Origin: Rhodospirillaceae bacterium
GTDB taxonomy: Bacteria; Pseudomonadota; Alphaproteobacteria; Rhodospirillales; JABHCV01
Length of the DNA stretch: 64,000 bases
NCBI GenBank assembly: GCA_018662005.1
Contig: JABJHA010000004.1
Location: 62,001 to 126,000 of the forward strand
Direction of reading: 5' to 3'
Every line of letters starts with the position of its first letter. Within the stretch, counting starts at the first letter, position 1. The notes under the pieces were generated by a model, which was not told the DNA's origin, made no database searches, and saw nothing but the letters and a program-made list of their open reading frames with translations. Positions 48,914 through 58,633 of this stretch are shown here, one piece after another. A program made the position numbers and the translations under genes.

Positions 48914-49046
48914 CTTAAATTTTGCCCACGAGGCCGACAGTTGCTTTAATTTTCAGCAATTTTACCCGTTTCGACTTTGCAACGAAGCCTTCTGTTTTTG
49001 TACTTTTCCCTTGTCGGCCAAGGGCTATAGGGCTTTGCCTGCGTAT

Positions 49047-55595: not shown

Positions 55596-56759
55596 ATGCC
55601 GCACCGCTTCAAACTCATCCAAATGCCTGCCTCACGCGAACCCGTATCCCTGCTGGCTGTTGACCGCTGTGTGTCGGAGTTGCGCCGTGGTCGCATGGTC
55701 TGTGTGCGTGGTGGTGGCGGTGTTTCGGCCCTGGTTCAGGCGGCAGAGGCTGTCACCGATGACGGGCTGGAAAAGCTCAAAACAGTTGCCCAGCAACAAC
55801 CGGTGCTGGCCATTACCCTCAGGCGTGCCCTGATTTTAAGCCTGATCGACGCCGCAGACCAAAAGTCCCCGGCCATTGCACTAAGCTGTGCCAAGGGCTG
55901 GCAAGCCGAAGCTGTCCTTGAATTGGCCGATCCGCTTTCCAACTTTGATTTTGAAAAAGGTCATTCCGGCGATCTAGATGTGAAGAGCGCAAAAACCTAC
56001 GGCTGCGCCGCCGCCGCCATCGGGCTTGCCAAGATTGCCCGCCTATTGCCAGCCGCCATGGTTGCCGAAATCAGCGATCCCGATGCCGAAGATGTTGATG
56101 CCTGGGCGATTCGCCATGGCTTGCTGGTCGTCGATGCCGGGGACGTCTTCCAGTACGAACACACCCAGGCGCGAACCTTGAAAGCAGTCAGCGAGGCAAG
56201 CGTACCACTGCTCGATTCCCAGGACGCCCGCATTATCGCCTTCAGGCCCGATGATGGCGGCCTTGAGCATCTTGCCATTATCATTGGTGCCCCGGATGAC
56301 AAGCGGCCGGTCCTGACGCGTCTGCATTCGGAATGTTTTACCGGCGATTTGCTGGGCAGCCTCAGGTGTGATTGCGGCGATCAGTTGCGCGGCGCAATCA
56401 ATGAAATCGCCTCTGCCGGTGGTGGCGTTCTCTTGTATCTGGCCCAGGAAGGGCGCGGCATCGGCTTGGTAAACAAATTGCGTGCTTATGAACTTCAAGA
56501 TCGCGGTTTCGATACCATGGACGCCAACGAGCAACTGGGATTCGACGCGGACGAGCGAATCTATCTACCCGCTGCCGAAATGCTCAACCAGCTTGGTTTT
56601 TCTTCGGTTCGACTATTGACCAATAACCCGGCAAAGATCGAAGCCTTAAGCGCCTGCGGTGTGGAAATCGTTGAGCGGGTCGAACACGCCTTCCCCGCCA
56701 ACCAGCACAATGAGCAGTACCTGAAAACTAAGGCAGCGCGTGGCGGCCACCTGATTTAA
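55596..56759 (+). CDS. ribA: GTP cyclohydrolase II with degenerate N-terminal domain
   Basis: First committed step of riboflavin synthesis from GTP. The C-terminal half is a full GCH II: RLHSECFTGDLLGSLRCDCG with zinc ligands C247, C258 and C260, LLYLAQEGRGIGLVNKLRAY, and LTNNPAKIEAL. The first ~200 residues occupy the place of DHBP synthase (RibB) but show none of its acidic catalytic motifs, so only the cyclohydrolase is expected to work. This RibBA-like layout with a dead RibB half is seen in alphaproteobacteria. It is divergent from the response regulator. Confidence 0.9.
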   Translation: MPHRFKLIQMPASREPVSLLAVDRCVSELRRGRMVCVRGGGGVSALVQAAEAVTDDGLEKLKTVAQQQPVLAITLRRALILSLIDAADQKSPAIALSCAKGWQAEAVLELADPLSNFDFEKGHSGDLDVKSAKTYGCAAAAIGLAKIARLLPAAMVAEISDPDAEDVDAWAIRHGLLVVDAGDVFQYEHTQARTLKAVSEASVPLLDSQDARIIAFRPDDGGLEHLAIIIGAPDDKRPVLTRLHSECFTGDLLGSLRCDCGDQLRGAINEIASAGGGVLLYLAQEGRGIGLVNKLRAYELQDRGFDTMDANEQLGFDADERIYLPAAEMLNQLGFSSVRLLTNNPAKIEALSACGVEIVERVEHAFPANQHNEQYLKTKAARGGHLI

Positions 56760-56865
56760 GGCCGGACAGGCGCTTTTTGCCCTGGTGTGGCGGCAGTTCT
56801 TGCCGCCGGGCCCGGTTTTCTTCGCGATTTTTCCGACAACTTATTGATTTATATGATTTTTTAGT

Positions 56866-56881
56866 TGGCACGCCGCTTGCG
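56866..56881 (+). promoter_or_regulatory. sigma-54 promoter upstream of an uncharacterised gene
   Basis: TTGGCACGCCGCTTGCG matches the -24/-12 consensus at nearly every position (TGGCACG, four bases, TTGC) and lies 50 bp before the ATG at 56931. It is the best sigma-54 match in the window. A T-rich stretch precedes it, where an enhancer-binding protein could loop in. Confidence 0.75.
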
Positions 56882-56930
56882 TATTAACAGGCGACATTAA
56901 AATGTGATCAAACTGAAGTGAACACAAGAA

Positions 56931-57839
56931 ATGATAGACGGGCCAATCGAAACAACAAGCTCCCAATCCGTATTGCCGACGCCAAGAACGTCGCTGCAAA
57001 ACATTGGCGAGAAACGCGATAAGGACGAAGAGGGCCGTGAAGGCAATTCGTTCCAGGCCTTTGGTGCGGATGGTTTTACTTTCCTCGACTTCCTCGACAT
57101 CATCAATCCTTTGCAACACATTCCTGTGGTCAGCACTGTCTATCGGGAAATGACCGGTGACGAGATCGATCCCGGTGCCCGCATTGCCGGGGGCACCCTG
57201 TTTGGCGGGCCAATCGGTGCGACCGTTGCGCTGGTTGATGTCGCCGTCGAACAAAGCTCTGGACAGGACATGGGCGATCATATGATGGCCCTGTTCACGG
57301 GCGAGGATGAACAAGGTGACGGCGTCGTCCTTGCCAATTCGCCTCCGCCTGCCGATTTTGTTACCGCCGCCGGGGTCAGCGCCGAAGAACTGGCGGACGC
57401 CGCAGGACCCATTACCACCAATGCCGAGGTTCTTGAGTGGGCGCGGCGCGAAACCAGCCGCATGTCGGTAAATGATGATCAGGCGCGCCTGAAAACACCG
57501 GCCGCAGAGACCGTTGATATTGCCACCAATGTAGAAGTCCTGAACTGGGCCCGCAAGGAAGCCGCCTTGTCTCTTTCCGATGTTGAAACTGCCGATGCGA
57601 CAACCCTGGATCAACGCAAAGCCGAACAGCAACTGAACACGCAAGACAAACAGGCAGCCCTGAGCACCGCCATCGCCCTGGGCCGCGATCAGTCGCAACT
57701 TAACGGCGCTGCCGCCCCGCTTGGTGGCTGGTTCTCCGAAACCATGCTGATTGCCTTGGCTAAATATGATGATAGCGCCCAACTGGGCAAGCCCGCCGCC
57801 GACCGGCGCGTCGAGGAATCCAGCAACCAGACCGAATAA
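56931..57839 (+). CDS. uncharacterised protein with NPLQHIPVVSTVYR motif (302 aa)
   Basis: No known domain was recognised. It has a low-complexity, charged N-terminus, then FLDFLDIINPLQHIPVVSTVYREMTGDEI-like sequence (residues 51-79, given here as INPLQHIPVVSTVYREMTG). A glycine-rich hydrophobic stretch follows (ARIAGGTLFGGPIGATVALV, 83-102). The C-terminal part has two copies of a 12-residue motif, TNAEVLEWARRE (163-174) and TNVEVLNWARKE (199-210). No signal peptide is evident. I recall similar motif-bearing hypothetical proteins in Rhodospirillales. The sigma-54 promoter suggests flagellar, nitrogen or stress control. Function unknown. Confidence 0.75.
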   Translation: MIDGPIETTSSQSVLPTPRTSLQNIGEKRDKDEEGREGNSFQAFGADGFTFLDFLDIINPLQHIPVVSTVYREMTGDEIDPGARIAGGTLFGGPIGATVALVDVAVEQSSGQDMGDHMMALFTGEDEQGDGVVLANSPPPADFVTAAGVSAEELADAAGPITTNAEVLEWARRETSRMSVNDDQARLKTPAAETVDIATNVEVLNWARKEAALSLSDVETADATTLDQRKAEQQLNTQDKQAALSTAIALGRDQSQLNGAAAPLGGWFSETMLIALAKYDDSAQLGKPAADRRVEESSNQTE

Positions 57840-57876: not shown

Positions 57877-58389
57877 ATGGAAATACTTGTCGACAGCCAT
57901 GGCTTCGCCTCCTGGACCGACGCTGCAGGAACGCCTCATAAAGCACGTTGCGCCCTTGGGCGCAGTGGTATCGGTGATAAGATTTCAGAAGGCGACGGCC
58001 ACACCCCTATCGGTCGCTTTCCCTTGCGCCGTGTCATGGTTCGAGGCGACAGGGTCCCGGCTGTGCACACTGCACTGCCGGTTTCACAATTAAGCAAAGC
58101 CGACGGCTGGTGCGATGATCCGGCCTCTGCCGATTACAACAAGCCCGTCACCCTACCCCATCCGGCGCGCCATGAAGAGCTGTGGCGGGACGACGCCGTT
58201 TATGACGTGATCGTCGAAATTGGCTGCAACGATGACCCTGTGGTGGCCGGCAAAGGCAGCGCAATTTTCATGCACGTCGCCAAGCCCGGCTATACCCCGA
58301 CAGAAGGCTGTGTCGCCTTGGCTCTGAAAGACTTGCTGGCGTTGTTGACGGCTTGTGGCACAGACAGTGTGCTTGTTGTTGATCGTTAG
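57877..58389 (+). CDS. L,D-transpeptidase-like (YkuD) protein (170 aa)
   Basis: YkuD-fold domain with the catalytic H133 and C145 in FMHVAKPGYTPTEGCVAL, preceded by the GHTPIGRFPL segment typical of the family. Such enzymes form 3-3 cross-links in peptidoglycan or attach proteins to it. There is no signal peptide or membrane helix at the N-terminus (MEILVDSHGFASWTDAAG), so export is unexplained; the group with short N-termini is widespread in alphaproteobacteria. It starts 37 bp after the sigma-54-dependent gene and may be co-transcribed. Confidence 0.82.
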   Translation: MEILVDSHGFASWTDAAGTPHKARCALGRSGIGDKISEGDGHTPIGRFPLRRVMVRGDRVPAVHTALPVSQLSKADGWCDDPASADYNKPVTLPHPARHEELWRDDAVYDVIVEIGCNDDPVVAGKGSAIFMHVAKPGYTPTEGCVALALKDLLALLTACGTDSVLVVDR

Positions 58390-58415
58390 GGTAATTGCCC
58401 CTCATTAGAGTTCAA

Positions 58416-58610
58416 GTCCCTCAAGCGCCCGGCGTTCGCTCCGCTCTCTTGGCTTTTTAGGCCTCTGGAAGTCAAATTTCAATTGGCAGCAGGTACCCGG
58501 ATTATAAAAACCGGGCTGCTGTTGCCATGCCAGTCTTGACTTCCAGAGGCCTCGCCACCCGAAGGGTGCGAAGCCAAGAGGCCCGAGGCCTCGCCCGGCG
58601 CTTGAGGGGC
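58416..58610. repeat. inverted-repeat element, copy B (195 bp)
   Basis: Outer arms CCCTCAAGCGCCCGGCG and CGCCCGGCGCTTGAGGG, middle arms GCCTCTGGAAGTCAA and TTGACTTCCAGAGGC (perfect), and inner arms around GGCAGCAGG/CTGCTGTTGCC and CCCGG/CCGGG make one long nested hairpin. The ends and the CCTCTGGAAGTCAA block match copy A. It lies between convergent genes and contains no gene. Confidence 0.75.
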
Positions 58611-58633
58611 TTAAACACTAATGAGCGGGAACT

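Follow-up and report, generated by a model that had tools for sequence, protein, structure and literature searches.

The locus described here raises the question of when, and in what service, a bacterium makes a protein that belongs to no recognised family. In a stretch of 64,000 nucleotides from a Rhodospirillaceae bacterium, which was analysed as a whole and is called the window below, the open reading frame list contains a frame on the forward strand for a protein of 302 residues, which we call X. An earlier note, made from the letters alone, had singled out a sigma-54-type promoter 50 bp before this frame as the best -24/-12 match of the window. When both strands were scanned with an approximate sigma-54 weight matrix, the site before X indeed came first with a score of 16.9, versus 14.4 for the next two sites (at 49046 and 47022), and the frame starts 49 bp past it. 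The element has its GG at 56867-56868 and its GC at 56879-56880. The bare -24/-12 consensus is not above chance in the window (10 matches with at most two mismatches versus 13.0 expected), and the support for the X promoter therefore rests on its conservation. The features of the locus are collected in Table 1.

Table 1. Features of the X locus, in window coordinates
Feature	Position	Strand	Basis
ribA-like upstream neighbour (GTP cyclohydrolase II, by inspection)	55596..56759	+	gene order; matched in 42/50 full-length loci
Possible second, degenerate copy of the repeat, GGCGCTTTTTGCC, 7/8 fixed bases; the main copy lies 23 bp downstream	56769..56781	+	read in the window only
Upstream inverted repeat GGCAGTTCTTGCC, probable FlbD (ftr-type) activator site	56792..56804	+	exact match, 75 bp before the -24 GG; conserved
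Sigma-54 (-24/-12) promoter TTGGCACGCCGCTTGCG	56865..56881	+	top matrix match of the window; conserved
X, uncharacterised 302-aa protein	56931..57839	+	open reading frame; relatives in 202/238 order genomes and 112/289 class genomes
Conserved core of X, residues 41-125, with NPLQHIPVVSTVYR and the glycine-rich hydrophobic helix, predicted helical	57051..57305	+	alignment A1, AlphaFold2
TN-x-EVL-x-WAR-[RK]-E, copy 1, residues 163-174 of X	57417..57452	+	
TN-x-EVL-x-WAR-[RK]-E, copy 2, residues 199-210 of X	57525..57560	+	
C-terminal stretch of X, LGGWFSETMLIALAKY..., kept in most members, predicted helix	57720..57785	+	alignment, AlphaFold2
L,D-transpeptidase (YkuD), probably on the X transcript	57877..58389	+	Pfam YkuD E 4e-10; spacing and gene order in relatives

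The conservation of the promoter was followed in several sets of loci, which overlap in part (L002 and L134, for instance, have the same position on contigs of equal length), by taking the best site per locus in about 500 bp and using letter shuffles as controls. Of 60 genomes searched, 49 had homologues of X, and all of the 30 best-scoring loci of the order, comprising the window's own and 29 relatives, carry a site with a score of at least 12, mostly 20-60 bp before a start codon. A set drawn from genome records, with 80 loci taken from at least 536 matched relatives and three dropped for contig edges, gave such a site at 74 of 77 loci versus 3 of 77 in shuffled sequence. At the level of the class, where 29 places from 112 carrier genomes were used (20 chosen by hand among those on the forward strand and nine supplied by the tool), the counts were 24 of 29 and 0 of 29. 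The check on orthologues that the earlier note had proposed thus bears out its promoter, and conservation strongly supports the predicted sigma-54 control of X.

A second conserved element lies further upstream. Alignment by eye of the DNA preceding X in relatives indicated an inverted repeat with a consensus of about CGGCARWTYTTGCCG and the fixed bases GGCA-N5-TGCC, mostly 65-100 bp upstream of the -24 element. A single copy means little, as the exact repeat occurs twice in the window with 1.76 copies expected, and its weight therefore rests on conservation as well. All eight fixed bases are present before X in 21 of the 30 order-level loci (0.1 expected) and at least seven in 29 (1.8 expected); the genome-record set has 45 exact copies among 77 loci (0.18 expected) and 70 with at least seven bases (3.8 expected), and the 24 class-level loci with a promoter site have 12 (0.06 expected) and 21 (1.6 expected), respectively. 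As for the possible second copy in the window, a match of at least 7/8 was obtained in 32 of 500 shuffles of the same stretch.

The same repeat is found at flagellar promoters. Twenty stretches upstream of flgI from other genomes of the order were read, of which 16 yielded 23 sigma-54 promoters and four none, one of these comprising just 1162 bases; a promoter was counted if it scored at least 13.5 and had an open frame behind it, and some of the 23 may not be promoters. Twenty of them carry the repeat with seven or eight of the fixed bases (0.94 expected), eight of them exactly (0.02 expected), and by inspection most of the 23 precede flgE, flgF or genes of the flgA/flgI region. In the genome to which the window belongs, the repeat stands before flgF and flgI (8/8 each) and before a flgE-like gene (7/8), all with sigma-54 sites. 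Over 14 stretches of this genome, 22 sites scoring at least 12.5 were examined: the repeat is exact at three, matches at seven bases at five and at fewer at 14, many of the sites without it being perhaps chance sites.

The activator was sought among the sigma-54-type activators, of which this genome has five strong ones. One gene is of the FlbD type and lies between motA-like and flhA-like genes (all named by inspection). FlbD activates the middle and late flagellar genes of Caulobacter at ftr sites (PMC3930126). Because the repeat is shared with flagellar promoters, a FlbD-type gene is present and FlbD has this role in Caulobacter, we infer that FlbD is the natural activator of X. X thus very probably counts among the genes of the FlbD/sigma-54 flagellar regulon while being encoded outside the flagellar clusters, with FlbD as the presumed ligand of the repeat. 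According to this scheme, FlbD would bind the repeat at 56792-56804 once the early flagellar structure is complete, both the timing and the identity of the binder being assumed; bound FlbD would then activate sigma-54 RNA polymerase at 56865-56881, and X, probably with the L,D-transpeptidase, would be made together with the hook and basal-body genes.

In the same genome, the exact repeat is followed after 40-70 bp by a strict sigma-54 pattern at two places, versus one for the reversed control pattern. One place is X; the other, on contig 15 (positions 79645-79717 of that contig in G000, L039; position 9703 of L040), precedes a GGDEF-type gene, and there the exact repeat accompanies a very strong sigma-54 site (19.5) and the GGDEF-type gene is followed by one for a 163-aa protein. 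Like X, this gene lies outside the flagellar stretches that were read and may belong to the flagellar regulon.

The earlier note had taken sigma-54 control as a sign of a conditional role, with flagella, nitrogen and envelope stress as its examples. Of these three the evidence favours flagella: the flagellar part gained support from the shared repeat and from the co-occurrence described below, whereas nitrogen gained none. Control of X by NtrC would be suggested by the ammonium-transporter genes located 6-10 kb away, which have sigma-54 sites nearby, but we consider it highly improbable. Neither of these two sites (47022 and 49046, the transporter genes beside them being named by inspection) has the repeat of X, the best matches there reaching 5 and 6 of the 8 bases, and nitrogen control was set aside for this reason. 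The absence of an exact TGCAC-N4-9-GTGCA near X is a weak argument in the same direction, since none is present near the ammonium-transporter sites either.

If X belongs with the flagellum, its gene might be expected in flagellated genomes, and the co-occurrence with flagellar genes that the earlier note had suggested looking for was found. Among 238 genomes of the order, X (searched with the query L004, the lists of X and FlgI being compared by hand) is present in 202 and FlgI in 198: both occur in 178, X only in 24, FlgI only in 20 and neither in 16 (p 1.6e-5). An FlhA match, in some cases partial, was obtained in 19 of the 40 FlgI-negative genomes, and some of these are therefore flagellated with gaps in the assembly. 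When the order was restricted to the 177 genomes with at least 90% completeness and at most 5% contamination, X was counted by hand in 147 of 166 genomes with FlgI, FlhA or FlbD versus 3 of 11 without (p 1.3e-5). The association is also seen in the class, where X was searched with profile A1: 112 of 289 genomes carry X and 168 carry FlgI, a number that includes a few weak or partial calls (E 0.001 gives 168 genomes and the cut-off 167). Both genes occur in 102 genomes, X alone in 10, FlgI alone in 66 and neither in 111 (p 2.4e-21). FlgI was thus found in 102 of the 112 carriers of X versus 66 of the 177 non-carriers. With one genome per family, chosen on the basis of the numbering of the genome handles, 47 of 137 families have both, 5 X only, 35 FlgI only and 50 neither (p 3.8e-9). 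These tests are made on counts of genomes, with no tree used. X tracks flagella in the class, although not absolutely.

Discordant genomes of both kinds were considered. X is absent from 19 flagellated genomes of the order that are at least 90% complete and from 66 FlgI-positive genomes of the class, and it is therefore not essential for flagella in those genomes. We considered that the X-negative genomes of the order might merely contain homologues too divergent to be found; this was rejected, as profile A1 at E values up to 1 matched in only two of 36, G192 (6.6e-4) and G019 (0.15). The match in G192 (L129), a genome in which FlgI, FlbD and FlhA were not found, is weak, covers the linker and the C-terminus and contains an internal stop, and is a probable remnant. 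Internal stops were also seen in two other genomes, with one TAA in the FlgI-negative G474 and three TGA in the FlgI-positive G376.

Conversely, to describe X as a strictly flagellar gene would be too strong, since 24 of its 202 carriers in the order have no FlgI. FlbD was searched in 60 discordant or negative genomes of the order, and a FlbD-type gene was found in 10 of these 24 carriers and none at E 1e-100 in the other 14. Eleven carriers show none of FlgI, FlbD and FlhA (G015, G030, G031, G044, G073, G078, G167, G173, G178, G185 and G200). The promoter region is largely kept in such genomes: at 23 X loci, 22 of them from FlgI-less genomes, a site scoring at least 14 is present in 21 (the exceptions being L085 and L062) and the repeat with seven or eight bases in 19, and among ten of the 11 genomes without any marker (all but G073) the sigma-54 site is kept in nine and the repeat at 7-8/8 in seven. 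One such case is G031, which is 98% complete in about 10 contigs and has the usual X neighbourhood; its other sigma-54-type activators resemble NtrC, NtrX (judged by position alone) and a regulator located beside hydrogenase genes. Genomes of this kind, with X, promoter and repeat intact and no FlbD at E 1e-100, would be accounted for if a different sigma-54 activator bound the repeat and X served something besides flagella. We regard this as improbable, as the repeat is the one found at the flagellar promoters described above. Moreover, the strong activators of G030, G073, G185 and G200 are only of the NtrC type plus one located about 3.7 kb away, NtrX by position, and the NtrX-type protein that was read in the window's own genome has no GAFTGA. 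Four other sampled members of the genus of G031 carry flagellar markers (FlgI in G049, G062 and G205; FlbD and FlhA in G152), and a recent loss of flagella in G031 is therefore possible. Under FlbD control, recent losses of this kind or assembly gaps may explain the carriers of X without markers.

The genomic neighbourhood of X is conserved and contains no flagellar cluster. The order CenR-like regulator, ribA, X, L,D-transpeptidase, yggS, thiE is kept in relatives, the six genes being matched in 46, 42, 50, 41, 47 and 39 of 50 full-length loci, respectively; the regulator upstream of ribA is one that we take to be a CenR-like response regulator. Where ribA went unmatched, X still has the CenR-like regulator and the transpeptidase as neighbours, for example in 10 loci ordered response regulator, X, L,D-transpeptidase, yggS, thiE. 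In the window, the transpeptidase starts 37 bp past the stop codon of X, exactly as had been noted earlier, and its identity was confirmed by Pfam. By extrapolation from alignments, no more than 100 bp separate the two genes in 55 of the 61 loci that allowed a measurement, and a simple scan of the gap in the window revealed no terminator-like site. On account of the short gaps in relatives and the lack of such a site, the shared transcript suggested earlier is likely. Beyond the transpeptidase, the region between this gene and the convergent yggS (58395-58631) contains long imperfect inverted repeats with arms of 61 nt (79%) and 45 nt (73%).

This arrangement suggests a different reading, in which X would be flagellar by its expression only, that is, an envelope or peptidoglycan protein acting with the L,D-transpeptidase and made when the cell becomes motile, without being part of the flagellum. 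The conserved position among the CenR-like regulator, ribA and the transpeptidase, the short gap to the latter, the carriers without flagellar markers and a moderately hydrophobic stretch in X (best 19-residue mean hydropathy of 1.06 to 2.07 over 30 members) are all in its favour. However, nine of the 50 full-length X loci have no transpeptidase match at E 1e-4, so that the pair may not be obligatory, and the co-occurrence of X with FlgI is strong. We therefore see this reading as possible, if somewhat unlikely.

The protein itself was compared with known families. The segment NPLQHIPVVSTVYR and the glycine-rich hydrophobic stretch, both pointed out in the earlier note, run through the family, whose layout was drawn from alignments A1 and A2 and from AlphaFold2 models. 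The N-terminus is variable and modelled with low confidence. It is followed by a core with the consensus FGxDGFTFxDFLDIINPLQHIPVVSTxYRxxTGDEIDP...GGTLFGGPIG...GKDxGEH, by an alanine- and proline-rich linker of varying length, and by a C-terminal GGWFxxxMLxALxKY present in most members. The duplicated T-N-x-E-V-L-x-W-A-R-[RK]-E motif is present in X as described earlier; across the family, WAR-type repeats, counted with a pattern of our own, occur in the linker of 12 of 30 members (19 found versus 0.42 expected by that pattern). The overall confidence of the two AlphaFold2 models is low (pTM 0.26 and 0.30), with a helical core for which the second model has block mean pLDDT values of 64-89 over residues 51-110. 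On the opposite strand, a 313-aa open frame covers 56841-57782 and is probably meaningless.

No significant family was found for X in Pfam, NCBIfam or PHROGs, in agreement with its earlier description as a protein without known function; the best E values of any member were 0.0075 (PHROG), 0.0099 (NCBIfam) and 0.084 (Pfam), and these weak matches are scattered and come from one or two members. Similarly, no significant relative was detected among PDB sequences, and none of the five matches that Foldseek produced from the first model reached E 0.001. With the second model, VIA-align listed 20 rows with Z of at least 2, of which the best (Z 5.0, 61 residues, 3.3 A) falls on a long helix; these rows lie largely on long helices and we read no kinship from them, families not listed there not being excluded. 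The plasmid collection gave no match at E 0.001 to the one query used (L008), and no paper containing the letters NPLQHIP came up in a full-text literature search.

A further property of the family is its scarcity of cysteine. Only two cysteines occur in the 9142 residues of 30 members, both in L030, and none in the 2550 residues of the core. Cysteine is likewise absent from five rod, hook and hook-associated proteins of the same genome (named by inspection), versus 8, 5 and 13 cysteines in the neighbouring RibA, L,D-transpeptidase and LeuS. Low cysteine is not special to X, as a LolA-like neighbour has none, the CenR-like one 1 and an FtsK-like one 2, and the near absence of cysteine fits an exported flagellar protein without proving it. 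The flagellar export substrates FliK, FlgD and FlgE have almost no cysteine, a variable linker and a conserved C-terminal part. X resembles them in these respects and in its low-confidence N-terminus; this is a resemblance only, no relation in sequence or fold having been found.

X thus probably takes part in flagellar assembly or motility without having been recognised before, a role to which its predicted regulation and its distribution point. As a working guess, it would be a nearly cysteine-free, partly disordered flagellar assembly or export-substrate protein whose helical core would be followed by a variable linker and a C-terminal helix. A further proposal goes beyond this: X, common across the class and encoded away from the clusters, would be a new component or export substrate of the alphaproteobacterial flagellum that cooperates with the co-transcribed L,D-transpeptidase in fitting the flagellum into the peptidoglycan or anchoring it there. 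This proposal is speculative and, in our judgement, unlikely as it stands. Flagellar genes are usually sought in clusters, whereas here a shared activator site, together with a sigma-54 promoter, leads to an unnamed protein that is encoded elsewhere. The promoter motif of X may be used to search whole genomes for the regulon, X itself is a concrete candidate gene, and flagellar assembly may be linked to L,D-cross-linking in the cell wall.

Uncharacterised proteins have been tied to the alphaproteobacterial flagellum before. The conserved proteins CP1-4 of Phaeobacter inhibens (PMC12363192) resemble X in this respect; they are encoded inside the flagellar cluster, whereas X is encoded outside. 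With the Caulobacter-type FlbD/sigma-54 genes, such as those for hook and flagellin, X has in common the -24/-12 promoter with an upstream inverted repeat, which it shares with the flgE, flgF and flgA-flgI region of the same order. In contrast to the FlbD-type flagellar genes, X lies between ribA and an L,D-transpeptidase gene, some of its carriers have no flagellar markers and its protein is uncharacterised. The distance from the repeat to the -24 element also differs, being often about 100-110 bp at the flagellar genes and mostly 65-100 bp at X.
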